From Acinetobacter equi (lineage in GTDB: Bacteria; Pseudomonadota; Gammaproteobacteria; Pseudomonadales; Moraxellaceae): a stretch of DNA of 64,000 bases. The stretch is from NCBI RefSeq assembly GCF_001307195.1, contig NZ_CP012808.1, positions 1,302,001 to 1,366,000 of the forward strand. The letters are read 5' to 3'. The first letter of the stretch is position 1; the number at the start of each line of letters is the position of its first letter. The notes under the pieces are model-generated. The model saw nothing but the letters and a program-made list of their open reading frames with translations, was not told the DNA's origin and did no database searches. This document shows, piece after piece, positions 6,515 to 64,000 of this stretch. The position numbers and the translations under genes are program-made.

Positions 6515-6533
6515 AACGAAAGATTGACGATTG

Positions 6534-6562: not shown

Positions 6563-6576
6563 TATGATGTATCTGA

Positions 6577-6653
<77 letters not shown>

Positions 6654-6690
6654 TGACTTAGAAAGGTACATTGAATCTAAATGATAAGCT

Positions 6691-7152: not shown

Positions 7153-7159
<7 letters not shown>
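7134..7159 (+). repeat. Left arm of 23S rRNA processing stem
   Basis: The arm CGACTGTTTGGGGTTGTATA... pairs with 10036-10062 with about two differences. It brings the 5' and 3' ends of 23S together for RNase III processing. Confidence 0.8.
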
Positions 7160-10035
<2,876 letters not shown>

Positions 10036-10045
<10 letters not shown>

Positions 10046-10062
10046 CAACACCCAAACAGTTG
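10036..10062 (+). repeat. Right arm of 23S rRNA processing stem
   Basis: Reverse complement of 7134-7159 with small differences. It spans the 23S 3' terminus. Confidence 0.8.
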
Positions 10063-10228
10063 TTGTATCAAGCATCAATTGATTCACAAATAATCAAAGA
10101 AACTTGATTTAGTTCTAAAGCTAGATACAATGAACACCTTAAATTAACTCAGATATACCTGTTAATAACTCATTTGAAGAAAGCTAGGCATCTAAGTAAG
10201 ACCATAGCAAGTAATCATAAACAGTTGT

Positions 10229-10342
10229 GCTGGCGACAATAGCAAGAGTGAACCACCTGATCCCTTCCCGAACTCAGAAGTGAAACCTCTTAGCGCTGAT
10301 GGTAGTGTGGGGTTACCCATGTGAGAGTAAGTCATCGCCAGC
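10229..10342 (+). rRNA. rrf: 5S ribosomal RNA
   Basis: About 114-116 nt. The terminal helix GCTGGCGAC pairs with GTCATCGCCAGC, and the conserved core GAACTCAGAAGTGAAACC is present. It lies 184 bp after 23S and is followed at once by the operon terminator. Ends are accurate to 1-2 bases. Confidence 0.95.
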
Positions 10343-10354
10343 TCATTAATTCTA

Positions 10355-48011: not shown

Positions 48012-48018
48012 GGTTTTG

Positions 48019-48052
48019 AAAAACCAGTGTCTTTTGATGCTGGTTTTTTTTA
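48019..48052 (+). terminator. Rho-independent terminator after relA
   Basis: A stem AAAACCAG / CTGGTTTT with extra T-run (T8). It separates relA from the aryl polyene cluster. Confidence 0.85.
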
Positions 48053-48219
48053 TTTAGAATTTGTGAAATAATGCTTAAGCTGCTTTTTATGATTTTATTT
48101 TAATCATTGAGTTTATTTTGTTTTTTGTATATTTTTTGTTTTCATAATTGCATTTATATTATTAAAATAGACAATGCAGCTTGGATAAGCCTTGTGGGAA
48201 AGGTGTGGAAGGTGACTTT
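48053..48219 (+). promoter_or_regulatory. Probable promoter region of the aryl polyene cluster
   Basis: A 167-bp, very T-rich stretch upstream of the first cluster gene. A weak promoter candidate is TTCATA (48141-48146), a 16-bp spacer and TAAAAT (48163-48168). It is the only sizeable non-coding gap before about 16 kb of tightly packed co-directional genes, so the main promoter should be here. No regulator gene lies nearby. Confidence 0.4.
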
Positions 48220-48846
48220 ATGATATACATAAATGTATCTGAGCTTTATTTAAGTTCAGAGGAATCATTATTCCCAGAATTAAAACAAATTCCTGCAATG
48301 CAACGTCGCCGTTTATCTACAATTGCAAAACTTGCAATAAATAGTGCATTAAGTGCGTTAAAGAATACATCAGTTGATTATATTATTTGGGTTTCCCAAT
48401 ATGGCGATGAGCATAAAACATTTAAAATTCTAGCTGATGTTTTACAAGATCAGACACCATCTCCCACACAATTTTCTACGTCTGTTCATAATGCAATTTC
48501 AGGGCTTTATTCAATTTTATGTCAAGATGCAACTCAATCAACAAGTTTAGCTGCGACTTGGAATGATGCACTAATAGAAGCTTATAGTTGGTTAAAAACA
48601 ACAAAAGTTGAAAATGCCAAAGTCTTGACTGTATTTTATGAAGAGAGCATGCCAAGCGTATATATTGAAAGTCATCCTTTTGATGCTTTTGCATTAGCGG
48701 GTATTATTTCTTTAGGAAATGAAAATTTAGCACTTTCATTTACTCCAGAACATGTTGCTAAAAATTATTATGAAGATGTTTTAGCTTTTTATCATTTTTG
48801 GGAGCAGACATCGGATGTTCAGTTTAAAGAATGGAAGAAAATTTAA
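48220..48846 (+). CDS. apeC: Ketosynthase-like chain length factor, aryl polyene cluster
   Basis: 208 residues of the beta-ketoacyl synthase N-terminal-like type (PF13723-like), with FSTSVHNAISGLYSI as its hallmark. Where active ketosynthases have the catalytic Cys (TACASG), this protein has SLAATW with Ala at about residue 111. It is therefore a non-catalytic partner like the chain length factor ApeC that pairs with ApeO. The start is ATG 48220 with GGAAGGTGA just upstream; a TTG at 48181 is less likely. It overlaps the next gene by 16 bp. Confidence 0.82.
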   Translation: MIYINVSELYLSSEESLFPELKQIPAMQRRRLSTIAKLAINSALSALKNTSVDYIIWVSQYGDEHKTFKILADVLQDQTPSPTQFSTSVHNAISGLYSILCQDATQSTSLAATWNDALIEAYSWLKTTKVENAKVLTVFYEESMPSVYIESHPFDAFALAGIISLGNENLALSFTPEHVAKNYYEDVLAFYHFWEQTSDVQFKEWKKI

Positions 48847-49652
48847 AAATGGATTTTATAAGAAAAAAAGCAAACTTTTGTTGGCGAGTGGGTGCCACAG
48901 GATTTAGTTTTGCAAGTTTTGGAATTGGTGGTGTGATTTTAGGTGGTTTAATTGCACCTCTTGTGAAGGCTTCCACAACGGATCAAAACCTAAGACAGAA
49001 ACGAACACAGAAAGTCATTAAATATACGTTTAAAGGTTTTACTAAAATGATGGTAAAGCTTGGAATTATGACGTATGAAATTGAAGGTTTGGAACAATTA
49101 AAAAATAGTCGTCAAGAACTAGTGATTGCAAACCATCCTACTTTAATTGATGTTGTTGTACTCATTGGTCTTATGGAACAAGCTAATTGTGTTGTTAAAC
49201 AAGCACTATGGCAAAATCCATTTACTAAAGGTGCTGTACAAAATGCAGGTTATATTTTAAATGCAGGTTCAGAACAGTTTATTCAAGATTGCGTAGATAA
49301 ACTTAATCAAGAACAAGCTGCTTCTTTATTAATTTTTCCGGAAGGCACTAGAACTGAAAAAGATACATTTTTGAATGAATTTCAAAGAGGTGCTGCAAAT
49401 ATTGCACTACGTGCAAAAGTTCCAATACGTCCAATTTTGATTCATTGTACGCCATCAACACTAACGAAAAATGAAAAGTGGTATCACGTTCCGAGTGAGC
49501 CTTTTCATATTCAAATTAAAGTGATGGATGCACTTGAGATCGATGATCTTTTAAATGATGATTGTATTAATCCTAAAAATGTTCGTCATTTGAATCACCA
49601 GTTATTCCAATATTTTAGTCAAGAGTTATGTAACGATGAGCAATCTCGCTGA
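48831..49652 (+). CDS. apeD: Acyltransferase (PlsC-like), aryl polyene cluster
   Basis: A 273-residue PlsC-type acyltransferase. The Hx4D motif is H102-D107 (NHPTLIDV), FPEGTRTEKD lies near 170, and a hydrophobic segment at about 22-45 anchors it in the membrane. APE loci encode such a protein next to the ACPs, perhaps to transfer the polyene or a fatty acyl to a lipid acceptor. An alternative start is ATG 48849. The 16- and 17-bp overlaps at its two ends indicate translational coupling. Confidence 0.83.
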   Translation: MEENLKMDFIRKKANFCWRVGATGFSFASFGIGGVILGGLIAPLVKASTTDQNLRQKRTQKVIKYTFKGFTKMMVKLGIMTYEIEGLEQLKNSRQELVIANHPTLIDVVVLIGLMEQANCVVKQALWQNPFTKGAVQNAGYILNAGSEQFIQDCVDKLNQEQAASLLIFPEGTRTEKDTFLNEFQRGAANIALRAKVPIRPILIHCTPSTLTKNEKWYHVPSEPFHIQIKVMDALEIDDLLNDDCINPKNVRHLNHQLFQYFSQELCNDEQSR

Positions 49653-49896
49653 TGAATTAAAGCAAATGATTATTGATGTGCTCGTATTAGAAGACATCCG
49701 TATCGAAGATATTGATAGTGAAGCTCCATTATTTGGAGATGGCTTAGGGCTAGATTCTATTGATGCTTTGGAACTTGGTTTAGCACTTAAGAAGCGTTAT
49801 AACGTGCATTTAAATGCAGAATCTGCTGAAACAAAGCAACATTTTAAGTCAATTCAAAGTTTAGTTGCTTTGGTTGAAGCACAAAAAACGGCATAA
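49636..49896 (+). CDS. apeE: Acyl carrier protein, aryl polyene cluster
   Basis: An 86-residue ACP with the phosphopantetheine Ser at S41 in LGLDSIDALEL. It starts 17 bp inside the upstream acyltransferase gene. It is the first of two dissimilar ACPs; in studied APE systems the two carry different stages (starter versus elongation), which I infer here without direct evidence. Confidence 0.9.
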   Translation: MSNLADELKQMIIDVLVLEDIRIEDIDSEAPLFGDGLGLDSIDALELGLALKKRYNVHLNAESAETKQHFKSIQSLVALVEAQKTA

Positions 49897-49906
49897 AGAG
49901 GTTGTC

Positions 49907-50155
49907 ATGCTGACTCAAGAAGAAGTTCTCGAAAAGTTAAGAGAGTGGATGGAAGATCTATTTGAAATTTCACCAGAAGATATTCAGTTGGATTCAAATT
50001 TAGCAACTGATTTAGATGTAGATAGTATTGATGCTATTGATTTGGTAGTAAAAATTAAAGAACTGACGGGAAAACAAGTTAATCCTGAAGATTTTAAAAG
50101 TGTAAGAACCATTCAGGATGTTGTTATTGTTATTCAAAATATGACAGTTGAATGA
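49907..50155 (+). CDS. apeF: Second acyl carrier protein, aryl polyene cluster
   Basis: An 82-residue ACP with S40 in LDVDSIDAIDL. ATG 49907 is preceded by AAAGAGG and gives the normal ACP start; a longer upstream start in the ApeE 3' end is an artefact. The stop overlaps the next gene's start as ATGA. Confidence 0.92.
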   Translation: MLTQEEVLEKLREWMEDLFEISPEDIQLDSNLATDLDVDSIDAIDLVVKIKELTGKQVNPEDFKSVRTIQDVVIVIQNMTVE

Positions 50156-50700
50156 AGAAAGTTTTTAAAGGGATATTGATAATTGGATTTATTTTTTATC
50201 CTTTTTTAGCGGGTTATTGTTTGGCGGAAGGACAATATGTATGGGTAGGTCTTTTATTAATCACATTAGGTTGCCTAAAGTTGTTTAGTAAAGGTAATGC
50301 ATTACTTTTGCCTCTAACCACTTTTGCTATTTTATGTGGTGCATTAAGTTTAATTTTGAAGGATGAAGCATGGCTAAAACTTTATCCTGTGTTTATGAGT
50401 CTTGGTGCTCTCATTATTTTTGCATTAACACTCATTAAACCACCTTCAATGATTGAGCGATTTGCACGTATTGTAGAACCAGATTTGCCACATGAAGGTG
50501 TGATATGGACTAAGAAAGTCACCATGGTGTGGTGTTTATTTTTTCTCTGTAATTCACTGATAGCTACATATACTGTATTTATGACATCTATGGAAATTTG
50601 GGTGTTATATAACGGATTTATTTCTTATTTTCTCATGGGTATTTTATTTGTCGTAGAATTTATTTTACGTAAAAGACAACAGCGTAAGCACCAATTATAA
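50152..50700 (+). CDS. apeG: COG4648-type membrane protein, aryl polyene cluster
   Basis: A 182-residue inner-membrane protein with about five hydrophobic segments, including MVWCLFFLCNSLIATYTVFM and a C-terminal RKRQQRKHQL tail. COG4648 proteins are a fixed part of APE and related loci, but their role is unknown. It is coupled to the preceding ACP by an ATGA overlap. Confidence 0.85.
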   Translation: MKKVFKGILIIGFIFYPFLAGYCLAEGQYVWVGLLLITLGCLKLFSKGNALLLPLTTFAILCGALSLILKDEAWLKLYPVFMSLGALIIFALTLIKPPSMIERFARIVEPDLPHEGVIWTKKVTMVWCLFFLCNSLIATYTVFMTSMEIWVLYNGFISYFLMGILFVVEFILRKRQQRKHQL

Positions 50701-50719
50701 AAATGGATGATGTTTAAAA

Positions 50720-52390
50720 ATGAAAAAATGGTGTCTGTTCGAACCTTACTTTCAATCAGCTCAAGTGCTATGTATTCGAGAAGATTTTAGTCACGTTTCA
50801 TTTCAAGCATTTTGGCAAGATGTTGCTCAACAAAGTGTTGAAATTAAAAAATTACATCATTCAGTGTGGGCATTATGGGAAAAAAATAGTTATGACTTTT
50901 TAGTTTTACTTTTTGCTGCACTTCAGGCGGGGAAGGATGTTCTATTACCTCCACATCGTATTCGTGATTTAGAAAAAGAATTAGCAGAACAAGATATTTA
51001 TTTTTTAAGTCGTCAAAATTTAGTCACTACACAGGATGAGCTAGTTGAGTTAAAGTTTGATGAAACTTTTTTTAATCAAGCAAAATTGTATTTTTATACA
51101 TCTGGTTCTACAGGACAACCTAAACGTATTCCAAGAACGTTAAAACAATTATTAAATGAAGTAAAAGGCTTAAATGATAGTTTTGAACTTCCATCTCAAG
51201 TGACCGCAATTTCGACCGTCAGTCATCAGCATATTTATGGATTATTATTTAAATTACTTTGGCCTTTAGCAAGTGGACGCAGTTTTTATGAGGTACAAGT
51301 TGCCTTTCCTGAAGATGTTATTGCGTTACAAAAAAAGCTTTCTGAGTGTGGAATTCAAAATTATTTCATTGCTAGCCCAGCATTGCTAAAGCGTTGGACT
51401 TCAGATTTAAAACTCCAAAATTGTGCCAAAATTTATTCTTCAGGGGGTAAGTTGGATGCTGGTATACGTCCATTTTTAAATGTGAGCATAGCTGAAATAT
51501 TTGGGAGTTCTGAAACAGGTGGAATTGCATATCGATATCAAGATAATGATGTATGGACACCTTTTGCAAATGTTGAAATTCAAGCTCAAACACATAATGA
51601 ATTAGCCGTAAAAGCAAATCATGCTTTTACTGAAGATTGGATTTTAACAGGTGATCAGGTTGACCTTGTAGTTCCAAATAATTTGAAAAGTTCATTTAAA
51701 TTATTAGGACGTTTAGATCGCTTAGTCAAACTTGAAGAAAAAAGAATAAGCTTGGATGCAATTGAGCAAAAGTTAATGGCTTTGCCTTTTATTGAACAAT
51801 GTCATGTTTTAGTTTTAGAGCAAGATGGTCGACAACGTTTAGCAAGTATTGTGGTTCTAAATTTACTAGGACGCACAGCGTTACATCAAAAAGGGAAAGC
51901 GAAATTTGTTGCTGAATTAAAAGCAACTTTAATCCATCAATTAGAGACAATTGCCATACCCAAACAATGGCGTTTTATAGCTAAACTTCCTAAAAATGCG
52001 CAATCTAAATTGAATAAGCACTATATGAAATCGTTATTTAATTCATTAACACTTCCTGTTGTTTTAGAAAAAAATGTTATAGAGAATGGTCATGAGTATC
52101 AATTAGAATTTATTCCAGAGTTGGAGTGTTTTAAAGGTCATTTTTCACAAAAGCCAATTTACCCAGGGGTAGGGCAAATTGCATTTATTCAACATTTTTC
52201 TAAAGAAAATTGGGCAGATTTGCAATGGTGTAATGGATATGAGCAATTAAAATTCCAAGACTTGATTCAGCCCTTTATGCAAGTCAATTTGTCTTTAAAA
52301 CGTCTAGACCATAAAGTGTCTTTTGAACTTAAAACTGAAGATAAAATTTTGGCATCTGGACGGCTATTATTTGCTGTGCAATCTATATAA
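50720..52390 (+). CDS. AMP-dependent ligase fused to a hotdog dehydratase, aryl polyene cluster
   Basis: A 556-residue two-domain protein. Residues about 1-445 form an adenylate-forming ligase (P-loop TSGSTGQPKRIP at 127-138; SSETGG near 265; LTGDQVDL near 312) that should activate an aryl acid. Residues about 455-556 form a FabZ/ApeI-like hotdog dehydratase with H474 in FKGHFSQKPIYPGV. In E. coli APE loci these are separate genes, apeH and apeI. The end of the ligase domain appears to retain its C-terminal lid (PKQWRFIAKLPKNAQSKLNK). Confidence 0.87.
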   Translation: MKKWCLFEPYFQSAQVLCIREDFSHVSFQAFWQDVAQQSVEIKKLHHSVWALWEKNSYDFLVLLFAALQAGKDVLLPPHRIRDLEKELAEQDIYFLSRQNLVTTQDELVELKFDETFFNQAKLYFYTSGSTGQPKRIPRTLKQLLNEVKGLNDSFELPSQVTAISTVSHQHIYGLLFKLLWPLASGRSFYEVQVAFPEDVIALQKKLSECGIQNYFIASPALLKRWTSDLKLQNCAKIYSSGGKLDAGIRPFLNVSIAEIFGSSETGGIAYRYQDNDVWTPFANVEIQAQTHNELAVKANHAFTEDWILTGDQVDLVVPNNLKSSFKLLGRLDRLVKLEEKRISLDAIEQKLMALPFIEQCHVLVLEQDGRQRLASIVVLNLLGRTALHQKGKAKFVAELKATLIHQLETIAIPKQWRFIAKLPKNAQSKLNKHYMKSLFNSLTLPVVLEKNVIENGHEYQLEFIPELECFKGHFSQKPIYPGVGQIAFIQHFSKENWADLQWCNGYEQLKFQDLIQPFMQVNLSLKRLDHKVSFELKTEDKILASGRLLFAVQSI

Positions 52391-52412
52391 ACAGGCGACT
52401 TAGAGATTACCT

Positions 52413-53150
52413 ATGAAATATTGCTTTGTGATTCCTGTTTATAATCATCCCCATTATTTAAACGCGTTGGTTGAGCATTTAGAACATTATCAATTGCCTA
52501 TTATTATGGTGAATGATGGTAGTGATGTCGAATGTAGTGATCTTTTGAGAAAAATTGCACAAGAGCATAGCTGTGTGGATTTAATTGAACATTCGCAAAA
52601 TCTAGGTAAGGGACAGGCGGTTATTACAGGCATACAACATGCTTATAAACTTGGATTTAGCCACGCGATTCAATTGGATTCAGATGGTCAGCATCGTTGG
52701 GATGATATTTCAAAATTTTTAGAAGCATCTCAACAGAATCCTGAAGCAATGATTATTGGTCAACCTGAGTTTGATGATTCTGTTCCGAAAAAGCGCTTAT
52801 ATGGACGTTACGCTACGCACATTTGGGTTTGGATTAATACTTTATCTTTTGAGATTAAAGACAGTATGTGTGGGTTTAGAATTTATCCATTAGCATCGAC
52901 AATTGATCTTTTAAATACTGCAAAGTTTCAGCTTCGAATGGGGTTTGATACTGAAATTTTAGTGCGATTAAAATGGAATAATGTTCCTTTTGTTAATGTA
53001 CCAACCAAAGTGATTTATCCTGAAAATGGAATTTCACACTTTAATGCACTTAGAGATAATATTGGTATCAGTAAAGCGCATACACGCCTTTTCTTTGGGA
53101 TGTTAATACGACTCCCTCAATTACTATCGCGTAAAGTAAAAGGGTCGTAA
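52413..53150 (+). CDS. Family 2 glycosyltransferase, aryl polyene cluster
   Basis: A 245-residue GT-A fold: FVIPVYNHPHYLNALVEHL, VNDGSD, and the metal-binding DSDGQH near residue 90, with a C-terminal PTKVIYPENGISHFN. It is dolichol-phosphate-mannose-synthase-like. It corresponds to the N-terminal half of the E. coli ApeJ glycosyltransferase/acyltransferase. The stop and the next start overlap by one base, so the fusion is split only by a stop. Confidence 0.87.
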   Translation: MKYCFVIPVYNHPHYLNALVEHLEHYQLPIIMVNDGSDVECSDLLRKIAQEHSCVDLIEHSQNLGKGQAVITGIQHAYKLGFSHAIQLDSDGQHRWDDISKFLEASQQNPEAMIIGQPEFDDSVPKKRLYGRYATHIWVWINTLSFEIKDSMCGFRIYPLASTIDLLNTAKFQLRMGFDTEILVRLKWNNVPFVNVPTKVIYPENGISHFNALRDNIGISKAHTRLFFGMLIRLPQLLSRKVKGS

Positions 53151-54076
53151 TGTCTGCATTAAATACGGAAAAATGGAACAATATTAAAGAGCGTGGCGGT
53201 ATGTTGCCATTGCTTATAATGTTGGCAATTTACCGATTTGGCGGTAGATGGTTATGCCGTTTTGTTTTGTATTTTATCATTTTGTGGTATTGGCTTTTTT
53301 CTAAAATTGCACGTGAAGCTTCTTTATTATATCTTTCGAATTTACATCAATTTGCACAAGAAAAATCTCCTTTTTCTAAAGCACCTTCTTTGAAAAATAC
53401 CTACCATCATTTAATGGCTTTTGGCGAGTGTATTTTAGATAAAATTGAAGGTTGGTTAGGGCATATTCCTGAGCACCAATTAGAATTACATGGTCATGAG
53501 CATTTTCGAGAGCATTATCAAAAAGGTGCTATTTTATTGGTATCTCATTTTGGAAATATTGAATTATTACGTGCTGTTAAATCAGAGCATGTGCAAAAAG
53601 TAAATATTTTGGTTTATCAGAAACATGCGACTAAATTTAACCAATTTTTAAAAAAATTAAATAAAAATGTTGATGTAAATTTAATTGCTGTAGATGAGCT
53701 AGGTGTTGAAACAGCAATGATTCTTGAGGAAAAATTAGCTCAAGGTGAGTGGATTATTATTGCTGCAGATCGGACACCTGTTGAGTCAAATCGAGTACAA
53801 CATATTTCATTTTTAGGTGAAATTGCAGCTTGGCCACAAGGTGCTTGGATTTTAGCTAATTTATTAAAAGCACCAGTTTTGGCTGTATTTTGTTATCGAA
53901 AAAAAGCAAAAATTCAAGTTCATATTCATTCTATTGCTGCGATTGTAAGTTTGCCAAGGCAAGGACGTTTAGAGGCAATGAAAGAATTTACACAAAAGTT
54001 TATAGCACTTTTGGAATATCACTGTATGCAAGAGCCGTATCAATGGTTCAATTTTTACAAATTTTGGAATAAATAA
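53150..54076 (+). CDS. LpxL-like lipid acyltransferase, aryl polyene cluster
   Basis: A 308-residue protein of the lipid A lauroyl/myristoyl acyltransferase family. A membrane anchor lies at about 32-52, the active site is Hx4E (H133-E138 in VSHFGNIELL), and ADRTPVES follows near 205. Its lipid acceptor is not determined; in APE models it helps attach the polyene to a lipid. Start ATG 53150 shares one base with the upstream stop. Confidence 0.86.
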   Translation: MSALNTEKWNNIKERGGMLPLLIMLAIYRFGGRWLCRFVLYFIILWYWLFSKIAREASLLYLSNLHQFAQEKSPFSKAPSLKNTYHHLMAFGECILDKIEGWLGHIPEHQLELHGHEHFREHYQKGAILLVSHFGNIELLRAVKSEHVQKVNILVYQKHATKFNQFLKKLNKNVDVNLIAVDELGVETAMILEEKLAQGEWIIIAADRTPVESNRVQHISFLGEIAAWPQGAWILANLLKAPVLAVFCYRKKAKIQVHIHSIAAIVSLPRQGRLEAMKEFTQKFIALLEYHCMQEPYQWFNFYKFWNK

Positions 54077-54078
54077 GA

Positions 54079-55623
54079 ATGGAACACTTAATTATCGGTG
54101 AATTATCTTTAACGATAGAAGATGTGATTGCTGTTGCTCGTGGTGAACAAAGAGTAGAGCTCTCATCATCAAAAGAATGGGTTGAACTCATTCATAAAGG
54201 TGCTGCATTTTTAGATCAATTATTAGAAGAAGAAGGTGTGATCTATGGTGTGACAACAGGATATGGTGATTCTTGTTTAGTTAATATTCCAGCACATCAG
54301 GTACATGAACTTCCTTTACATCTTTCTCGTTTTCATGGCTGTGGGTTGGGAGAAAATCTCGATTTAGTCAGTGCACGAGCAGTTGTGATTACTCGTTTAT
54401 GTTCTTTAGCTCGAGGTTATTCGGGCGTTTCATTTGAACTTTTGGAACGCTTGGTATGGATGCTCAATGAAAATGTAATACCAGTTATTCCATCTGAAGG
54501 TTCTGTTGGTGCAAGTGGTGATTTAACGCCTTTATCTTATATTGCAGGGGCGTTAGTAGGTGAGCGCGATGTGTACTACCAAGGAAAAATAGTTCCTATT
54601 GCAGATGTTTATGCTGAAAAAAATATGCAGGCTTTGATATTAAGACCAAAGGAAGGTTTGGCTTTAATGAATGGTACTGCAGTTATGACAGCGTTGGCTT
54701 GTTTAAATTATAAAAAAGCGGAACAAATTGCTTTAGCGAGTACTTATATTACGGCATTAAATGTATTGGCATTGGAAGGTAATGCGAGTCATTTTGACGA
54801 AGTTCTATTTGCACAAAAACCACATCAAGGGCAGCAGTATATTGCGCATCAATTACGTGATTGGTTGAATTATCAAGTTCAAACAGAACATCAAACTTCT
54901 CGTTTACAAGACCGTTATTCACTTCGTTGTGCACCACATATTATTGGGGTATTTGAAGACTCAAAAACATGGTTACGTCAATTTATTGAAAATGAATTGA
55001 ACTCCAGTAATGATAATCCGTTGATCGATCCTATTCATTTACGAGTTTTACATGGTGGGCATTTTTATGGTGGTCATATTGCACAAGCCATGGATAGCTT
55101 AAAAATTATGATTGCCAATATTGCAGATTTAATGGATCGTCAATTGGCACAGCTTGTTGATTATAAAATGAATAATGGTCTGCCTCGTAATTTGACAGGA
55201 TCAACAGCAGATCGATTACCGTTAAATCATGGGTTTAAAGCAGTGCAAATTGGGGTTTCTGCATGGACAGCAGAAGCACTAAAACAAACTGTTGCAGCTT
55301 CTATTTTTTCACGCTCAACCGAATGTCATAACCAAGATAAAGTAAGCATGGGAACAATTGCAGCACGAGATGCGAGTCGAGTGATTCTTTTAACTGAACA
55401 AGTGATTGCTGCTTTAAGTTGTGCCAGTGTACAAGCTGTAAAATTGAAAAATTTAAATTCACAATTAGGTCGAGTTTTAACAGCATTTCAACAATGGGTT
55501 CTTCAAAGCTTCAAGTATGTAGAGGAAGATCGACCATTACGAAAAGAGTTGCAGATGTTGGTCGATCGTTTTGAAAATCTAGAACTCATTCAAAGCTCAA
55601 TTTTGACTGAGAATAAGGAATGA
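54079..55623 (+). CDS. MIO aromatic amino acid ammonia-lyase, aryl polyene cluster
   Basis: A 514-residue HAL/TAL/PAL family protein. The MIO-forming Ala-Ser-Gly triad is at 145-147 (VGASGDLTPLSY), the catalytic Tyr lies in IYGVTTGYG near 56, and YSLRCAPHIIG and NSSNDNPLID are typical. The substrate selectivity pair reads Phe85-His86. Canonical tyrosine lyases often have His-Leu or Ser-His and histidine lyases Ser-His, so substrate cannot be called. In APE loci the enzyme is expected to make an aryl starter acid (for example coumarate). Confidence 0.88.
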   Translation: MEHLIIGELSLTIEDVIAVARGEQRVELSSSKEWVELIHKGAAFLDQLLEEEGVIYGVTTGYGDSCLVNIPAHQVHELPLHLSRFHGCGLGENLDLVSARAVVITRLCSLARGYSGVSFELLERLVWMLNENVIPVIPSEGSVGASGDLTPLSYIAGALVGERDVYYQGKIVPIADVYAEKNMQALILRPKEGLALMNGTAVMTALACLNYKKAEQIALASTYITALNVLALEGNASHFDEVLFAQKPHQGQQYIAHQLRDWLNYQVQTEHQTSRLQDRYSLRCAPHIIGVFEDSKTWLRQFIENELNSSNDNPLIDPIHLRVLHGGHFYGGHIAQAMDSLKIMIANIADLMDRQLAQLVDYKMNNGLPRNLTGSTADRLPLNHGFKAVQIGVSAWTAEALKQTVAASIFSRSTECHNQDKVSMGTIAARDASRVILLTEQVIAALSCASVQAVKLKNLNSQLGRVLTAFQQWVLQSFKYVEEDRPLRKELQMLVDRFENLELIQSSILTENKE

Positions 55624-56045
55624 TGATGCATGCTGATGTAATAATAGAAGTTCCATTTCATGATGTAGATACCATGGAGGTTGTTTGGCATGGGCATTAT
55701 TTGAAATACTTTGAAATTGCGCGTTGTAAGCTGTTAGATCAGTTTGATTATAATTATAAGCAAATGCGTGATTCAGGTTATGCATGGCCAATTATTGAAA
55801 GTCATGTCCGTTATGCACATGGAATTTTGTTTGAACAAAAAATTCGTATACGTGCGACTTTAAAAGAATGGGAAAATCGCCTAAAAATTGAATATCAAAT
55901 TTTTGATGCAAAATCTGGGAAGCGATTGACCAAAGGTTATACCACTCAAGTGGCTGTTGATATGCACACTAAAGAGATGTGTTATCAATCACCACAAATT
56001 CTGTTTGAGCGTTTAAATGCTTGGGCAGAGTTTAAGGCAGAGTAA
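55620..56045 (+). CDS. apeK: 4HBT-type thioesterase, aryl polyene cluster
   Basis: A 141-residue hotdog thioesterase with the family signature DVDTMEVVWHGHYLKYFEIAR (catalytic Asp region) and KIEYQIFDAKSGKRLTKGYT. It is linked to the ammonia-lyase by an ATGA overlap. ApeK proteins probably release or edit the aryl-polyene acyl chain. The first two codons are ATG ATG, so the start may be 55620 or 55623. Confidence 0.87.
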   Translation: MMMHADVIIEVPFHDVDTMEVVWHGHYLKYFEIARCKLLDQFDYNYKQMRDSGYAWPIIESHVRYAHGILFEQKIRIRATLKEWENRLKIEYQIFDAKSGKRLTKGYTTQVAVDMHTKEMCYQSPQILFERLNAWAEFKAE

Positions 56046-56047
56046 AG

Positions 56048-56689
56048 ATGAAGTATCAAAATTTATTTCGATCGACCATTTTAGCTTTAGCGAGCTCTAT
56101 GGCAATAGTACCTATCATGTCGGTGCATGCTCAAAATGTAGAATTACAAAAGGTATTTCAGCAATTATCTGCAATGCCAGTGGTAAGAGCAAATTTTGAA
56201 CAGCAAAAGAAATTAGCTTCTCTTAATAAAACTTATGTGTCTAAAGGAACTGTTTTATTTTCTAAAAATGCAGGTGTTTTGTGGCAAATACAAACACCAG
56301 TTAAAGCAGATTTAATTGTTACACCAAAGAAATTGATTCAAAAAACTCAGCGCACGTATAGCCAAATTGAAGTTGAAAAAACACCTTATGGCTCTGTTGC
56401 GACAATGTTTTTACAGCTTATGTCTGGAAATGAAACGGCTTTGGCAAAAAACTTTAATGTAGTTTCCGCAGAATATTCGCCAACTGCATGGAATGTTGTT
56501 TTAACGCCAAAAAGTAATTTATTTAAGAAGCTGTTTGATCGAGTTGATGCACAAGGTCAACGTTATGTAAATAAAATTGTGATTCAAGAAAAAGCAGGAA
56601 ATAGCACTACAATTCGGTTTACGCAGCAAACATCACAACCTCAAACTTTAACGGCCAATGAGAATGAACTTTTCCAATTGGCAAAATAA
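56048..56689 (+). CDS. apeL: LolA-like periplasmic carrier, aryl polyene cluster
   Basis: 213 residues with a signal peptide (cleavage after VHA near 29) and a LolA-like hydrophobic barrel-and-lid domain (VRANFEQQKKLASLNKTYVSKGTVLFSKNAGVLWQI). It likely carries the lipid-linked polyene across the periplasm. Its 3' end overlaps the exporter gene by 32 bp. It starts 2 bp after apeK. Confidence 0.86.
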   Translation: MKYQNLFRSTILALASSMAIVPIMSVHAQNVELQKVFQQLSAMPVVRANFEQQKKLASLNKTYVSKGTVLFSKNAGVLWQIQTPVKADLIVTPKKLIQKTQRTYSQIEVEKTPYGSVATMFLQLMSGNETALAKNFNVVSAEYSPTAWNVVLTPKSNLFKKLFDRVDAQGQRYVNKIVIQEKAGNSTTIRFTQQTSQPQTLTANENELFQLAK

Positions 56690-58985
56690 AGCCACCGCAA
56701 TTTGGCTCATTATACTTACAGTTACTGCATTAGTTTTAGGTGTAGCATGGCTAAAAAAAGAGATTCATATTGAATCTAATATTTTTGCATTATTACCAGA
56801 GACTCATCAGGATGAACGCCTTGAACAAGCTCAAAATTATGTAAGTGATCAACTTAATGATAAAATTTTTTTGCTGATTGATGCAGCAACGGATGAAAAA
56901 CTTCAAGTTGCAACTCAGACATTAAAACAACAGGTAGATCAAAGTGGTTTATTTAATCCATTAAAACCTCAGTTTGATGGTGAAGCTTTTGCAAGAATGC
57001 TGTATCAACATAAAGTGGGTTTATTGACAGAAAGTGATCGTCAGTTATTACGTGATGGCGATTATGATGCATTGGCAGAGCAAAGTTTACTTCAGTTAAT
57101 GAGTCCTGGAATGCCTGTAACGGCAGACTTATTAAACTCAGATCCGTTTTTATTTTTTCCAAGATATGTTGCAAACTTAGCTGCACTTAATACCCATAAT
57201 ATTGAGCTTGAAGATGGTTTTGCGACGTTAAAAGATGAGCAAGGAATTTCTCGCCTATTTGTTTTGGAGCTAAAGCAAAGTCCTTATAATATTGAATATC
57301 AAGAAAAAACGACTGTATTTATTGATCAAATTAATAAAAAAATGACAAATTTAGGTGTAAATCCACATTGGACAGGAACACTTTTATTTGCTCAGTTTGG
57401 AACAAATTCTGCTAAAAATGAAATTTCGACTATTGGTGTAGGTTCAACTCTCGGTATTTTATTACTCGTTTGGTTTGGCTTTCGTTCAGTACGTCCTATG
57501 TTGACGGAAATGATTGCTGTTAGCACAGGCTGTTTATTGGCATTTGCTGTGACATATTGGATTTTTGGTGAAATTCATTTAATGACCTTAGTTTTTGGCG
57601 CAAGCTTAATTGGTGTTTGTGTTGATTTCTCATTTTATTTTATGGCAATGCAGTCACAGCATCGTAATGTTGATGGATTTGCAGTACTTAAACCTGTGTT
57701 GCCAAGTTTATTTGTTGGTTTATTAACAACTTTAATGGCATATGTCGTTTTAAGTTTTACACCATTTCCAGGATTTAAACAGATTGCTGTGTTTTCAATG
57801 GTTGGTTTAACTGCTGCATGGATTACAAGCATTTTACTTTTACCAAGATTACCTGCATTAAACGCTGAACCTGCAATTCGAACCTTGGCATTTATTGGCA
57901 ATATTCGGACTTATGTTCAATCCAAAAAAAACTTACGTTATGGATTAATTGCGGGAATTATAGTTGTTACGGGAAGCAGTTTATTCTTTTTGCAAAGTAA
58001 TGATGACATACGTAATTTACAAAGTATGGATCAACACTTAAAACAAGAAGATCAATATATTCGTGAAAAATTTGCCCAACAGCAGGGAAGTGAATACTTT
58101 GTTGTACATGGGAAAAATTCAGCTGAATTATTGTTAAATGAACAAAAGCTTATTCAGCAATTACAGCAACTTCAAAGCGAAAATAAGCTTGCAGGTTTTC
58201 AGTCTTTAGCTCAATGGCTACCAAGTGAACAGACACAAAAAGAAAATATTCAACTATTAACACAAATTCCACGTGGAACATTAGCGTTTTATGCAGAAGC
58301 AATGCAGTTAGATGTAAATGATCTTCAAACTTGGCAAGTACAATTAAAGCAACAACCTATCTTCGATTTTAATGCTTTTTCAACGCATCCATTGGCATTT
58401 TTGCAAATCAATCCAACGACAAGATTGGTGATGTTGCAAAATATTCAAGATTTAAATGCTGTTGAAAAATTGCAAACCAATGAGATCAAGTTATTACGTC
58501 CTGTAAATCAATTATCTGAACTTTTCTCTGAACATCGCTTACATGCACAGTGGCTACTTGTTTCTGCACTTGTGATTTTAGCAGTGGGTTTAGGTGCACT
58601 ATATGGACGAAGATCAATTTTGCCATTGGTTTTACCCGTAACAATGGCTTTAATGACAACCTTTGCTATTCAGGCATGGCTTGGTGTTGAAATTAATCTT
58701 TTTAGCATTATGGGAACATTTCTTATTATTGGTATTGGTGTTGATTACGCAATTTTTTATCGACATGGACATGATCATCCGCAAGTCGTTGGTATGGCTT
58801 TATTCTTATGTATGATGTCAACCTTTTTAGGTTTCGGGTTATTGGCTTTTAGCCAAACTTATGCCATTCATTGCTTTGGATTAACTGTTTTACTCGGGGT
58901 TGTTTTTGCTTTCGTTTATGCAACCTTGTTTACAACTTCTGATGAAAAACATATTGTTATTGAACAATATCAAACAAAAAATTAA
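56658..58985 (+). CDS. apeM: MMPL/RND-family exporter, aryl polyene cluster
   Basis: A 775-residue inner-membrane pump with two sets of about six helices and two periplasmic loops (about 30-250 and 455-620). Segments such as LVFGASLIGVCVDFSFYFMAM and MGTFLIIGIGVDYAIFYRHGH are the MMPL sterol-sensing-like signatures, with Asp residues suited to proton coupling. It probably extracts the aryl polyene lipid. The start is ATG 56658 or 56664. Confidence 0.88.
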   Translation: MRMNFSNWQNKATAIWLIILTVTALVLGVAWLKKEIHIESNIFALLPETHQDERLEQAQNYVSDQLNDKIFLLIDAATDEKLQVATQTLKQQVDQSGLFNPLKPQFDGEAFARMLYQHKVGLLTESDRQLLRDGDYDALAEQSLLQLMSPGMPVTADLLNSDPFLFFPRYVANLAALNTHNIELEDGFATLKDEQGISRLFVLELKQSPYNIEYQEKTTVFIDQINKKMTNLGVNPHWTGTLLFAQFGTNSAKNEISTIGVGSTLGILLLVWFGFRSVRPMLTEMIAVSTGCLLAFAVTYWIFGEIHLMTLVFGASLIGVCVDFSFYFMAMQSQHRNVDGFAVLKPVLPSLFVGLLTTLMAYVVLSFTPFPGFKQIAVFSMVGLTAAWITSILLLPRLPALNAEPAIRTLAFIGNIRTYVQSKKNLRYGLIAGIIVVTGSSLFFLQSNDDIRNLQSMDQHLKQEDQYIREKFAQQQGSEYFVVHGKNSAELLLNEQKLIQQLQQLQSENKLAGFQSLAQWLPSEQTQKENIQLLTQIPRGTLAFYAEAMQLDVNDLQTWQVQLKQQPIFDFNAFSTHPLAFLQINPTTRLVMLQNIQDLNAVEKLQTNEIKLLRPVNQLSELFSEHRLHAQWLLVSALVILAVGLGALYGRRSILPLVLPVTMALMTTFAIQAWLGVEINLFSIMGTFLIIGIGVDYAIFYRHGHDHPQVVGMALFLCMMSTFLGFGLLAFSQTYAIHCFGLTVLLGVVFAFVYATLFTTSDEKHIVIEQYQTKN

Positions 58986-59003
58986 ACATAAGGCATACGG
59001 TTT

Positions 59004-60302
59004 ATGAGCATTATACAACAAACGGATATTTTGATTATTGGGGCAGGACCTTCAGGTAGTTCAGCAGCCGCTTTATTAAAGAAAAAAGGCTATGACGTTA
59101 CGATTATTGAAAAACAACATTTTCCACGGTTTTCAATTGGCGAGTCATTATTACCACAATCTATGGTTTTTCTTGAAGAAGCAGGGCTATTAGAGTGTGT
59201 TCGTGACCATGTTGATGAATTTGCATTCCAATATAAAAATGGCGCGGCTTTTTTAAAAGGAAAACAGCGTAGTTTTTATGATTTTAGAGAAAAATTTAGT
59301 GAAGGTCCTGGAACAACTTGGCAAGTTCGTCGTGCGCCATTTGACCATTTACTTGCATCTCAAGCTGAAAAAATGGGTGCAGAAATTCGCTTTGGGCATG
59401 AAGTTATTGCGGTTAATGTAGAAAGTCATCAGCCAATATTAACGGTTAAAAATGAACAAGATGAAATCTATCAAATTCAAGCAAAGTTTTTGCTTGATGC
59501 GAGTGGTTTTGGACGCATACTTCCTAAATTTTTAGATTTAGAAAGCCCATCTGATTTTCCAGTACGCCGTGCGGTATTTACTCATATTGAAGATGGGATT
59601 TTAGATGATCCTGATTTTGATCGTGAAAAAATCTTAATTACCGTACATGAAAAAGATCCACGTGCTTGGTATTGGCTAATTCCATTTGCAGATGGTCGAT
59701 CATCTTTTGGTGTGGTTGCTGAACAAGACTTTTTTGAAAAACATGGTTTTGATCATAGTACAGAATATGATTTAGAGTCATTACTGAAACGAATTTTGGC
59801 AGATGATCCTGCACTTTCACATGTACTTCGAAATGCTCAATTTGATACGCCTGTACGAACTTTAGTTGGCTATTCTGCTAACGTAAAACATCTTGCAGAT
59901 CGTAATTATGCATTGCTTGGAAATGCAGGTGAGTTTTTAGATCCTGTATTTTCATCAGGTGTAACGATTGCATTAAAATCATCAAGTTTAGTTGTTCCTT
60001 TGGTAGAAAAGGTTCTACAAGGGGAAGAGGTAAATTGGATGGAAGAATATGAAAAACCACTTCGTAAAGGCATTCAAGTTTTCCGTGCTTATGTGGAAGC
60101 ATGGTATTCGGGTGAATTTCAAGATGTTGTATTTTCTCAATATCAAGAAGAAAAAATTAGACTGATGATTTCTTCACTTTTAGCGGGTTATGCATGGGAT
60201 GAAGAAAATCCAATTCATCGTAATGCGAAACAACGATTACATGTGATTTCACAATATTGCCAAGAGCAAATGCAGCGAGTAACTCAGGAAGATGTCACCT
60301 AA
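59004..60302 (+). CDS. FAD-dependent oxidoreductase, flavin-halogenase-like, aryl polyene cluster
   Basis: 432 residues. FAD loop GAGPSG is at 13-18, then FPRFSIGESLLP near 40-51, a Lys at K78 in FQYKNGAAF, and WYWLIP at 222-227, matching the WxWxIP motif of flavin-dependent halogenases. The K78 position is comparable to the catalytic lysine of those enzymes. Most proteins of this type in APE loci are annotated only as oxidoreductases; geranylgeranyl-reductase-like activity is the main alternative. It overlaps the DUF3261 gene by 11 bp. Confidence 0.83.
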   Translation: MSIIQQTDILIIGAGPSGSSAAALLKKKGYDVTIIEKQHFPRFSIGESLLPQSMVFLEEAGLLECVRDHVDEFAFQYKNGAAFLKGKQRSFYDFREKFSEGPGTTWQVRRAPFDHLLASQAEKMGAEIRFGHEVIAVNVESHQPILTVKNEQDEIYQIQAKFLLDASGFGRILPKFLDLESPSDFPVRRAVFTHIEDGILDDPDFDREKILITVHEKDPRAWYWLIPFADGRSSFGVVAEQDFFEKHGFDHSTEYDLESLLKRILADDPALSHVLRNAQFDTPVRTLVGYSANVKHLADRNYALLGNAGEFLDPVFSSGVTIALKSSSLVVPLVEKVLQGEEVNWMEEYEKPLRKGIQVFRAYVEAWYSGEFQDVVFSQYQEEKIRLMISSLLAGYAWDEENPIHRNAKQRLHVISQYCQEQMQRVTQEDVT

Positions 60303-60843
60303 AATTCATTTGAAAATTGTTGGAATTTTATTGGCGAGCGCACTGCTATGCAGTGCGTGTCAAAGTTTTATACCTACTGCTCAAGGTTTGAAATCCACAG
60401 CTTGGGTGGATCAATCGTATTTACGCCAAGATCAAATTGAAGTTCAATGGAAAGATAAAAGTTTTAGCTTTTTATTGTATCAACAGCAGCAAGGTAAAAA
60501 TTTAGACATGATTGCACTCAGTTTGACTGGTCAGCAATTATTTAAACTGTCATTTAATGGGGAAAAGGTGACAGTAGAGCAAAGAATTGATCAAATGAAG
60601 TTATTGCCATTTGAATATGTTGTACGAGATTTATTGTATGCAACTTATCCAAATTATTTAACAGAGGCAAAAATTGAACAACAAGATCAAATGAAAATGG
60701 TATTGATACAAAATCAAGCAGTATTAAAAATCACTCAACAAGAGAATGAAGTTGAGTTACAGAATATTCAGGTTCCATATTTAATGATGATTAGTCCAAT
60801 TGATGCAGCTTTAGAAAGTGATGGTGTGCTGAATGCTCAATAA
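60292..60843 (+). CDS. apeN: DUF3261 lipoprotein, aryl polyene cluster
   Basis: 183 residues with a lipoprotein signal (LLCSAC lipobox, Cys about 23) and a beta-rich mature domain with RQDQIEVQWKDKSFSFLLYQ. DUF3261 proteins accompany LolA/MMPL in APE loci and may receive the lipid at the outer membrane, similar to LolB. Eleven-bp overlaps at each end. Confidence 0.85.
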   Translation: MSPKIHLKIVGILLASALLCSACQSFIPTAQGLKSTAWVDQSYLRQDQIEVQWKDKSFSFLLYQQQQGKNLDMIALSLTGQQLFKLSFNGEKVTVEQRIDQMKLLPFEYVVRDLLYATYPNYLTEAKIEQQDQMKMVLIQNQAVLKITQQENEVELQNIQVPYLMMISPIDAALESDGVLNAQ

Positions 60844-62029
60844 AATTGATTCCAATCAAACAGCAGTTGGTATTCAGTATGCTGTGGGATTATCTGCATT
60901 AGGTGAGAGTTCGGATCAAATTCGACAATCACTTACTATGCAATCTCAGACATTAACAGCAAGTAAAGACTATATTTTAGAGAAGCAAGTATGGGTAGGA
61001 GCATATCAATCAGCTTTAGTTGATAGTGTTCCAGATCATTTAAAGTATTTAGATTCAAGAAATTTACGTTTTGCATTGACGGCTTTGCAAAAAATTGAAG
61101 CACAAGTTAAAGCTTATACATCTCAGTTTGAGACACAGCGTTTAGCCATTGTTTTAGGAACATCAACATCTGGCATTTCAACCAATGAACCTTTAATTCA
61201 GCAACACTTTTTGAATCAGAGTACAAAATTAATTGGGCATGAAAAACAAGAAATGGGCAGTCTTGCTAAATCGATTCAATCTTATTTAGGTTGGAAAGGA
61301 CCAGCTTATACAATTTCTACAGCATGTTCTTCGAGTGCAAAAGCGATGGCAGCAGGGCAACGATTAATTCATGCAGGATTAGCCGATGCTGTTTTGGTTG
61401 GTGGTGTCGATACTTTATGTAAACTTACTTTAAATGGTTTTAATAGCCTTGAAAGTTTATCTGATGATATTTGCCGACCATGTGGCTTTAAACGAGATGG
61501 TATTAATATTGGTGAAGCAGCTGCATTGTTTTTAATTTCAAAAGAAACTGCGCCTGTTATGCTTCTTTCCGCTGGTGAATCAATGGATGCTTGGCATATA
61601 TCTGCGCCACATCCTGAAGGTCGAGGTGCGGCAGAGGCAATGCAAAAAGCTTTAGATACAGCTAACTTAAATGCTACAGATATTCATTATTTAAATTTGC
61701 ATGGAACATCGACACCTCAAAATGATGCTATGGAAATTAATGCGGTAAGAACTGTATTTAAAGATTATGATGTTCCATTAAGCAGTACCAAACATAAAAC
61801 TGGACATTGTTTAGGGGCAGCAGGTGCGATTGAAGCCTTAATTTGTCACCAAGTTTTATTAGATCAATCATGGTTGCCTTTACATCATGATGGCGTGATT
61901 GATCCTGATTTAGATGATCAAAATTATATTTTGACTTCAAATCATTCGCAGCCTATTCAATATGTCATGAGTAATTCATTTGCTTTTGGTGGAAGTAATA
62001 TTAGTTTGATTTTTGGACTATCTAAATGA
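60833..62029 (+). CDS. apeO: Beta-ketoacyl-ACP synthase, aryl polyene cluster
   Basis: 398 residues of thiolase fold with an intact triad: C165 in ISTACSSSAKAM, H290 in NLHGTSTPQND and H325 in STKHKTGHCLGAAG. It is the elongating ketosynthase that pairs with the Cys-less partner at 48220 in characterised APE systems. It overlaps the DUF3261 gene by 11 bp and apeP by 4 bp. Confidence 0.9.
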   Translation: MLNKIDSNQTAVGIQYAVGLSALGESSDQIRQSLTMQSQTLTASKDYILEKQVWVGAYQSALVDSVPDHLKYLDSRNLRFALTALQKIEAQVKAYTSQFETQRLAIVLGTSTSGISTNEPLIQQHFLNQSTKLIGHEKQEMGSLAKSIQSYLGWKGPAYTISTACSSSAKAMAAGQRLIHAGLADAVLVGGVDTLCKLTLNGFNSLESLSDDICRPCGFKRDGINIGEAAALFLISKETAPVMLLSAGESMDAWHISAPHPEGRGAAEAMQKALDTANLNATDIHYLNLHGTSTPQNDAMEINAVRTVFKDYDVPLSSTKHKTGHCLGAAGAIEALICHQVLLDQSWLPLHHDGVIDPDLDDQNYILTSNHSQPIQYVMSNSFAFGGSNISLIFGLSK

Positions 62030-62445
62030 TGGATGCACTGCAATTTATTCCACACGAAAAGCCGATGGTTTTTATTAACCATCTTATAGAAGCGAATGAA
62101 ACTTCTGCTATTGCAGAATTAATCATTACATCTGATTTAATGTTTTGTGAACAACAAGGTTTACCCACTTGGACAAGTATTGAATTGATGGCGCAAACGG
62201 TCAGTGCATATGCAGGTCATCGAGCTAAAGAAACAGGTGGAAAACCTAAAATTGGATTTTTATTAGGTACAAGAAAGTTAACTTTTCCCATTCCTTTTTT
62301 TGAATTGGGTGAAACAGTTAAAATTCATGTAGAACAAAATTATGTTCATGAAGGATTGGGGCAATTTAGTTGTCAAATTGAATATCAAACCTACGTATTC
62401 AACGCGATGATTAATGTATTTGAACCAAATGATGAAATGGAATGA
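62026..62445 (+). CDS. apeP: Hotdog dehydratase, aryl polyene cluster
   Basis: A 139-residue 3-hydroxyacyl-ACP dehydratase-like protein: IPHEKPMVFINHLIEANETSA (hotdog start with His) and the helix TWTSIELMAQTVSAYAGHRA, with Glu where FabA/FabZ have Asp/Glu. It is the second dehydratase of the locus; the first is fused to the ligase. Coupled to apeO by an ATGA overlap. Confidence 0.87.
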   Translation: MMDALQFIPHEKPMVFINHLIEANETSAIAELIITSDLMFCEQQGLPTWTSIELMAQTVSAYAGHRAKETGGKPKIGFLLGTRKLTFPIPFFELGETVKIHVEQNYVHEGLGQFSCQIEYQTYVFNAMINVFEPNDEME

Positions 62446-62458
62446 TTAGAGAATCACT

Positions 62459-63184
62459 GTGAATAAAAGAATTTTAGTAACGGGTTCAAGCCGTGGTATT
62501 GGAAAAGCGATTGCTTTGGAACTAGCAAAATCAGGTTTTGATGTAACTGTTCATGCAAGATCAAGACAACAAGAAGCAGAGCAGGTATGCGAAGAAATAC
62601 GAATGCTTGGACGTGAAAGTCATGTTCTTATGTTCGATGTGAATGACCGTGAATTAATTATTCAGCATCTTGAAAATGATATAGCTCAATTTGGGGCTTT
62701 TTATGGTGTTGTTTTAAATGCAGGTTTAACACGTGATGGAGCTTTTCCTGCATTAACAGATGATGATTGGGATGATGTGATTTCAACGTCATTAAACGGA
62801 TTTTATAATGTTTTAAAACCATTAATGATGCCAATGATTCGCATGAAAAAGGGAGGGCGTATTGTCACGCTTTCTTCAGTGTCGGGCGTAATGGGAAATC
62901 GTGGGCAGGTCAATTATAGCGCAGCTAAAGCAGGCTTAATTGGTGCAACTAAGGCACTTGCTTTGGAGCTTGCAAAGCGAAAAATTACGGTTAATTGTGT
63001 CGCACCGGGTTTGATTGAAACAGAAATGGTGACAGAAGAAGTCAAAGAACACGCATTAAAAATGATTCCAATGCAACGCATGGGGCAAGTTGAAGAAGTT
63101 GCAAAAGTGGTAAGATTTTTATGTAGTGATGATGCAAGTTATATCACCCGCCAAGTGATTTCAGTCAATGGAGGGCTGATTTAA
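62459..63184 (+). CDS. apeQ: 3-ketoacyl-ACP reductase (FabG-like), aryl polyene cluster
   Basis: A 241-residue short-chain dehydrogenase. The nucleotide loop is TGSSRGIGKAIA at 8-19, NAGLTRDGA follows near 87, and the catalytic S140, Y153, K157 lie in TLSSVSGVMGNRGQVNYSAAKAG. It starts with GTG 62459. The stop and the apeR start overlap by one base. Confidence 0.92.
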   Translation: MNKRILVTGSSRGIGKAIALELAKSGFDVTVHARSRQQEAEQVCEEIRMLGRESHVLMFDVNDRELIIQHLENDIAQFGAFYGVVLNAGLTRDGAFPALTDDDWDDVISTSLNGFYNVLKPLMMPMIRMKKGGRIVTLSSVSGVMGNRGQVNYSAAKAGLIGATKALALELAKRKITVNCVAPGLIETEMVTEEVKEHALKMIPMQRMGQVEEVAKVVRFLCSDDASYITRQVISVNGGLI

Positions 63185-64000
63185 TGAAACGTGTTGTCGT
63201 TACAGGAATGTCAGGAATCACATCATTAGGTGAAACGGCAGATCAAATTTTTGAACAGTTTAAATTAGGAAAAAGTGGCATTCGTTATATGTCAGATTGG
63301 GCTGTTTATACCGATTTACGAAGTAAATTGGGTGCTCCTGTGAGTTCATTTACCATTCCAAAGCATTTTAACCGTAAAGTGACACGTGGAATGGGACGTG
63401 TTGCTTTAATGTCTGTTATTAGTGCAGAAAAAGCATTAGAAAATGCAGGATTGTTAAATCATCCAATCCTTTCAAGTGGTGAGGCGGGTGTTGCTTATGG
63501 TTCATCTGCTGGTAGTGTAGATGCGGTTAAAGAGTTTGGTGCAATGCTACTCGATAACAATATGAATCAGCTAAATGCAACGACTTATATTCGAATGATG
63601 TCGCATACCAGTGCTGTGAATATGACGGTTTATTTTGGTTTAAAAGGGCTGACATTACCAACTTCTAGTGCATGTACATCAGGCTCAATGGCAATTGGTC
63701 AGGCATATGAAGCAATTAAATATGGCAAGCAAACATTAATGATTGCAGGTGGTGCAGAAGAAATTAGTGCAGCAGGATCAGCGGTGTTTGATGTGCTGCT
63801 CGCAACAAGTGTGCAAAATGATCATCCTGAAAAAACACCACGACCATTTGATAAAGCACGAGATGGTTTAGTGATTGGTGAAGGTGCAGGTACGTTAATT
63901 TTAGAAGAATACGAACATGCTATTGCACGAGGTGCAACTATTTATGCAGAAATTATCGGTTATGGTAGTAATACTGATGGTCAGCATGTAACGCGTCCAA
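63184..64000 (+). CDS. apeR: Beta-ketoacyl-ACP synthase, 3'-truncated by the window, aryl polyene cluster
   Basis: An open frame from ATG 63184 to the window edge (272 codons), too close to the edge to close. It encodes MKRVVVTGMSGITSLGETADQI, then PTSSACTSGSMAIGQAY with catalytic C164, and RPFDKARDGLVIGEGAGTLIL. This is a complete FabF-like N-terminal half; the His residues lie beyond the window. In APE systems ApeR is the second ketosynthase, thought to act in the initial condensation. Confidence 0.9.
   Translation, partial: MKRVVVTGMSGITSLGETADQIFEQFKLGKSGIRYMSDWAVYTDLRSKLGAPVSSFTIPKHFNRKVTRGMGRVALMSVISAEKALENAGLLNHPILSSGEAGVAYGSSAGSVDAVKEFGAMLLDNNMNQLNATTYIRMMSHTSAVNMTVYFGLKGLTLPTSSACTSGSMAIGQAYEAIKYGKQTLMIAGGAEEISAAGSAVFDVLLATSVQNDHPEKTPRPFDKARDGLVIGEGAGTLILEEYEHAIARGATIYAEIIGYGSNTDGQHVTRP

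Follow-up and report, generated by a model that had tools for sequence, protein, structure and literature searches.

The aryl polyene operon of Acinetobacter equi and its predicted tyrosine ammonia-lyase and halogenase-like flavoprotein

Gene content and order of the operon

In the window analysed here, i.e., the whole 64,000-nucleotide stretch spanning positions 1302001-1366000 of the one-contig genome (3.05 Mb) of Acinetobacter equi, 18 consecutive genes are located on the + strand from position 48220 up to the window end at 64000, which cuts the last of them. As judged from the gene content, the gene order, and the best matches to named Ape proteins, the locus is an aryl polyene (APE) operon, a kind of cluster that is already known. 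Neighbouring genes are spaced by -32 to +22 bases, and a fitting Pfam domain is present in 17/18 of the encoded proteins. The genes are the following (percentages are identities to the proteins of the Escherichia coli CFT073 ape cluster):

48220-48846, +: apeC, chain-length-factor-like partner of ApeO (PF13723, 1e-41; best PDB match 7f28_A, 2e-59, 205 bits; CFT073 ApeC 29%)
48831-49652, +: apeD, lysophospholipid acyltransferase family (PF01553; CFT073 ApeD 39% over 186 aa)
49636-49896, +: apeE, acyl carrier protein 1 (PF00550; CFT073 ApeE 56%)
49907-50155, +: apeF, acyl carrier protein 2 (PF00550; CFT073 ApeF 42%)
50152-50700, +: apeG, COG4648-type membrane protein (PF04279 IspA-like, 5e-8; CFT073 ApeG 38% over 120 aa)
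50720-52390, +: apeH-apeI fusion, aryl-acid adenylation/ligase and ApeI dehydratase domain (PF00501 and PF13193 over cut-off)
52413-53150, +: apeJ, glycosyltransferase half (PF00535; CFT073 ApeJ 52%)
53150-54076, +: apeJ, LpxL-like acyltransferase half (PF03279; CFT073 ApeJ 33%)
54079-55623, +: aromatic amino-acid ammonia-lyase, predicted tyrosine-specific (PF00221, 1e-154)
55620-56045, +: apeK, thioesterase (PF13279; CFT073 ApeK 58%)
56048-56689, +: apeL, LolA-like periplasmic carrier (PF03548; CFT073 ApeL 28%)
56658-58985, +: apeM, MMPL/RND-type exporter (CFT073 ApeM 27% over 771 aa)
59004-60302, +: FAD-dependent halogenase-like flavoprotein (without counterpart in the CFT073 cluster)
60292-60843, +: apeN, DUF3261 lipoprotein, LolB-like by its E. 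coli name (PF11659, 1e-19; weak phmmer match to CFT073 ApeN)
60833-62029, +: apeO, ketosynthase of the pair with ApeC (PDB 7f28_B, 602 bits, followed by Xenorhabdus doucetiae 6qsp_A, 296 bits; CFT073 ApeO 42%)
62026-62445, +: apeP, dehydratase (PF22817 ApeP-like, 3e-17; CFT073 ApeP 29%)
62459-63184, +: apeQ, ketoreductase (PF13561; CFT073 ApeQ 60%)
63184-64000, continuing to window-equivalent 64407, +: apeR, second ketosynthase (PDB 7f27_A, 725 bits; CFT073 ApeR 57%)

A preliminary description of this DNA had counted at least 18 consecutive same-strand genes, which agrees with the 18 genes listed, and had recognised the APE gene set in its conserved order. The latter point holds as well, since counterparts of 16/18 ape genes of CFT073 (apeC to apeR) follow one another in unchanged order, and the best PDB matches of ApeO, ApeC, and ApeR are named Ape proteins of the Acinetobacter baumannii (global clone 2) cluster, i.e., ApeO-ApeC (7f28) and ApeR (7f27) (PMC8358021, data availability). 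The operon encodes a ketosynthase (ApeO) with a half-size chain-length-factor partner (ApeC), a second ketosynthase (ApeR), two stand-alone acyl carrier proteins, a ketoreductase, two dehydratases, and a ligase, with no enoyl reductase gene; acyltransferases, a thioesterase, and the LolA/MMPL/DUF3261 transport set complete it in conserved order. Within this transport set the ApeN match is weak (phmmer 4e-5 within the 18-protein set, no blastp match below 0.1) and ApeM is recognised by pairwise comparison only, in that no Pfam match was found at 0.001 and HpnN-type RND models match below their cut-off. The start of ApeC is most likely the ATG at 48220, because residue 1 of the predicted protein aligns with residue 1 of 7f28_A.

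Some differences from the E. coli cluster can be observed. One protein combines ApeH (matched by its residues 33-441) with ApeI (matched by its residues 459-526; the C-terminal part is matched by 6qsr_A, and PF22818 ApeI-like lies just below cut-off, 28.2 vs 28.5 bits), whereas apeJ, a single gene in E. coli, is split. No counterpart of CFT073 ApeA or ApeB was found in the operon, nor any ApeB match in a genome search that had no positive control; we count the two among the traits of the E. coli cluster and do not take them as defining for the APE class. Conversely, the CFT073 cluster has no ammonia-lyase, flavoprotein, or phosphopantetheinyl transferase, and it is the first two that set the Acinetobacter version apart. 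The preliminary description had called this version less studied, which has to be qualified, as crystal structures and in vitro polyene assays are already available for A. baumannii ApeQ, ApeO-ApeC, and ApeR (PMC8041823, PMC8358021). The two distinguishing genes appeared in its gene list but were not taken further there.

While gene content, order, conservation, and motifs are direct observations, the function is predicted. The explanation that best accounts for all of them, and in which we place reasonably good confidence, is an APE operon whose chain would start from tyrosine-derived p-coumarate and whose ring may be halogenated. The operon itself is largely ordinary; it is the refinement concerning starter and halogen that is testable.

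The halogenase-like flavoprotein

The most likely role of the flavoprotein is halogenation of the 4-hydroxyphenyl ring, in line with its motifs and its structure model. A GxGxxG motif, a WxWxIP motif, and the catalytic lysine of halogenases are all present. WxWxIP is found in 75/75 flavoprotein rows and GAGPSG or GAGPAG in 72/75, the other three being gapped there (rows not de-duplicated), and Lys78, which aligns with residue 76 of the CndH chain, is kept together with WxWxIP in 20/20 aligned sequences. The structure model is confident (pLDDT 90.8) and, in a fold comparison listing 50 entries, resembles most of the listed halogenases more closely than it does the hydroxylases, eight halogenase entries being placed above every listed hydroxylase. 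The phenol halogenase PltM is not among these 50 entries, yet it matches in sequence at 55 bits.

Some observations weigh against halogenation: the closest solved relative is 3nix, a protein whose function is not known, the flavoprotein reaches no NCBIfam cut-off, and in a sample of 149 Acinetobacter genomes, part of a larger group, its gene accompanies the ApeO gene in all 78 genomes that harbor the latter (78/78 clusters), which is unusual for an optional decoration. It is conceivable, albeit the less favoured possibility, that the protein is a hydroxylase or a dehydrogenase acting on the APE or its precursor. Opposed to this are the conservation of the lysine and of WxWxIP, a motif proposed to bar hydroxylation (PMC10696468), and the rank of the eight halogenase entries over all hydroxylases.

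The ammonia-lyase, the starter unit, and the predicted product

In ammonia-lyases, the position of the second selectivity motif discriminates between histidine ammonia-lyases (HAL) and tyrosine or phenylalanine ammonia-lyases (TAL, PAL). The lyase of the operon has the Ala-Ser-Gly triad forming the methylidene-imidazolone (MIO) group and a TAL/PAL-type second motif; Ala-Ser-Gly 145-147, Phe85-His86, and Asn418-Gln419 are invariant in 13/13 sequences. In 28/28 APE-type rows (counting the window protein twice and Acinetobacter rathckeae twice), the first motif is Phe-His and the second HNQDKVSMG, whereas the HutH-like protein encoded elsewhere in the genome has Ser-His and NQEDHVSMA. His86 aligns with the histidine of tyrosine aminomutase (2qve). 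Because the second motif is of the TAL/PAL type, unlike that of the genome's own HutH-like protein, p-coumarate formed from tyrosine is the likely starter. A precedent is FlxA of the flexirubin cluster, a TAL with an approximately 1000-fold preference for tyrosine over phenylalanine, whose first motif is HAL-like and whose second, again taken to separate HAL from TAL/PAL, is TAL/PAL-type (PMC3992019). Among the NCBIfam models, that of tyrosine ammonia-lyase BagA/FevW scores best, although its 404 bits stay under the cut-off of the model. From the motifs, the FlxA precedent, and this model, tyrosine is therefore the likely substrate. The predicted structure model of the lyase is weak at the active-site loops and was left unused.

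Several points stand against a tyrosine start. In alignments with PDB chains, the first motif is Phe-Leu in PAL (2nyn, 5ltm) and Ser-His in the same tyrosine aminomutase; since Phe-His fits neither the PAL chains nor the aminomutase/HutH type, the specificity is uncertain, and the authors of the FlxA work hold that it is not predictable from sequence alone (PMC3992019). HutH models follow closely (391 and 382 bits), and no NCBIfam model reaches its cut-off. Furthermore, a chorismate lyase encoded in the genome makes 4-hydroxybenzoate available too, the A. baumannii enzymes formed polyene in vitro from 4-hydroxybenzoate loaded by ApeH (PMC8358021), and two sampled genomes (G076 and G097) keep the operon without any lyase-family match genome-wide.

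The last three points suggest a starter taken, as in E. coli, from the 4-hydroxybenzoate of the ubiquinone pathway, with the lyase as a supplementary or conditional supply only; chorismate lyase is encoded also in G007, G076, G097, and G134. We consider this rather unlikely, in view of the fact that the lyase gene is embedded in the operon (2 bases after the preceding gene and overlapping the next by 4 bases) and is kept in 75/78 sampled Acinetobacter clusters, one of the three exceptions (G113) lying near a contig end. Far less probable still is a histidine ammonia-lyase or an aminomutase feeding something else: names of close homologues (best 120 of 5724) include histidine ammonia-lyase, tyrosine 2,3-aminomutase, and phenylalanine ammonia-lyase, and the HutH scores are only slightly lower, but a separate HutH-like gene with HAL-type motifs, 32% identical to the lyase, exists in the genome, and the second motif of the operon lyase is of the TAL/PAL type. 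The best NCBIfam model of the ligase (4-coumarate--CoA ligase) was dropped as evidence for coumarate, since it also ranks first for CFT073 ApeH.

With a tyrosine start, the reactions, the product, and its location, all modelled on those of relatives, would be as follows. The ammonia-lyase would convert tyrosine to p-coumarate, which the ApeH half of the fusion protein would load on ApeE; ApeO-ApeC, together with ApeQ, ApeP, and the ApeI domain and assisted by ApeR, would elongate it with malonyl units, omitting enoyl reduction. ApeK may release the chain, ApeD and the split ApeJ may attach it to a larger membrane lipid, and ApeM, ApeL, and ApeN may transfer it to the outer membrane, the flavoprotein being the putative halogenase of the 4-hydroxyphenyl ring. 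An ApeB-like methyltransferase was found neither in the operon nor, by the search without positive control mentioned above, in the genome. The predicted product is a tyrosine-derived, possibly ring-halogenated, unmethylated aryl polyene, made across much of the genus.

Related systems share parts of this scheme. In Chitinophaga pinensis, the flexirubin cluster likewise starts an aryl polyene with a tyrosine ammonia-lyase and a ligase (PMC3992019); inspection by eye of the operon and the genes adjoining it showed no dialkylresorcinol genes (DarA/DarB), the genome not having been searched for them. In the alterochromide (alt) cluster of Pseudoalteromonas, AltA makes a coumarate starter, and bromination no longer occurs once altN is lost (review PMC5577590). 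The chain of that pathway is passed to a nonribosomal peptide synthetase, whereas the window operon has ape transport genes; the comparison with AltA and AltN is at the level of their described functions. The xanthomonadin/arcuflavin clusters also yield aryl polyenes and contain a halogenase-annotated gene, arcA (PMC3949708), but their starter comes from a XanB2-type chorismate enzyme, unlike the one proposed here.

APEs, which are yellow pigments, rank with the most widespread secondary metabolites that Gram-negative bacteria make (PMC8358021); their membrane attachment and the increased protection from oxidative stress that they confer were described in E. coli (PMC8253772). If p-coumarate start and ring halogenation are true, the published A. 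baumannii assays were without the native starter route and the tailoring step, and the pigment could be recognisable by its isotope pattern. The words halogenase and ammonia-lyase are absent from the main texts of PMC8041823 and PMC8358021, and among the literature matches listed (subscription literature being outside their scope) no title or abstract opening deals with a tyrosine start or a halogenation of the Acinetobacter APE. We advance only tentatively the proposal that the aryl polyene lipid of Acinetobacter, and of A. baumannii too, is derived from tyrosine and halogenated on the ring, so that the 4-hydroxybenzoate-started in vitro pigment would not be the native product. The lyase found within the APE cluster of G007 shares 97-98% identity with proteins recorded under A. 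baumannii and its near relatives; the names of its homologues (best 120 of 5724), which come without genomic context, often read 'histidine ammonia-lyase'.

Distribution and genomic site

The ammonia-lyase is present at 70% identity or more in 75 of the 149 Acinetobacter genomes. Among the lyase-less genomes with ApeO, the cluster of G113 is the one near a contig end, while in G076 and G097 the other genes of the operon are retained. In G076, a TAG had raised the suspicion that ApeO is broken, but its frame of 390 aa is intact. The G076 cluster also has one more full-length ligase gene of the AMP-binding type, located between the genes for the flavoprotein and ApeN (L073, 7125-8780, -), whose product might load another starter. 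Upstream of the G097 cluster, ApeI-like and ApeP-like dehydratase genes are located (L072, 103-922). Acinetobacter baylyi DSM 14961 (L049), of a species common in the laboratory, has the operon complete with lyase and flavoprotein. Beyond the genus, these two genes are found in the APE clusters of two Pseudoalteromonas genomes, of G310, and of G303.

In a class-wide sample of 321 genomes, ApeO is over cut-off in 72. According to a hand count, the lyase occurs within 15 kb on the same contig in 14 of these, the flavoprotein in 14, and both in seven (Fisher one-sided p 0.004; 0.010 when the window genome is left out). The lyase and the flavoprotein look like separable add-ons to APE clusters, and this pattern offers natural comparison strains.

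The operon is bordered by relA and secF, the latter on the opposite strand, with the following features in between (the last two in window-equivalent coordinates):

48012-48219: gap between relA and the operon, with a terminator-like hairpin of relA (48018-48049) and, at 48139-48168, a weak candidate promoter resembling the sigma-70 type
64487-64924: gene for a 145-aa secreted protein, 79 bases after apeR
65022-65660: phosphopantetheinyl transferase gene, 97 bases after the preceding one

The last two genes are probably further operon members. A promoter scan around the operon gave 49 promoter-like matches vs a mean of 62.2 in shuffles, none above shuffles, and an Rfam search gave no match in the operon. 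Terminator-like sites number 21 vs 9.3 in shuffles, nearly all within genes.

The operon end lies by secF in 17/17 named Acinetobacter loci (16 genomes, A. rathckeae twice), whose 10-kb flanks stop short of apeC. Since this holds in the named loci and the GC content resembles that of the surroundings, a recent-island origin is unsupported. On a single contig, A. rathckeae EC24 harbors two oppositely oriented operon copies that do not differ in their identities (L046, L047), which may reflect a duplication or an assembly artefact.

The downstream side of relA was examined in 30 of the 71 APE-negative genomes, with a relA match in 29. In 14 of these, secF lies within 1.5 kb, one match is at a contig end, and the others have different genes; in G025 the match is in two separate pieces (L117, L118). 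Because two of the 14 have the phosphopantetheinyl transferase alone between relA and secF (L090, L104), this gene may belong to the site or remain from a lost cluster.

A second site exists in G007 and G135, where the same gene order is found between der/engA and a phosphopantetheinyl transferase adjoining secB. The A. baumannii APE site, published as lying between engA and acpS (PMC8041823), fits this arrangement, whereas the window operon is located at relA-secF.

Elsewhere in the window, a complete rRNA operon (16S, tRNA-Ile, tRNA-Ala, 23S, 5S) is located at 4978-10343 on the + strand.

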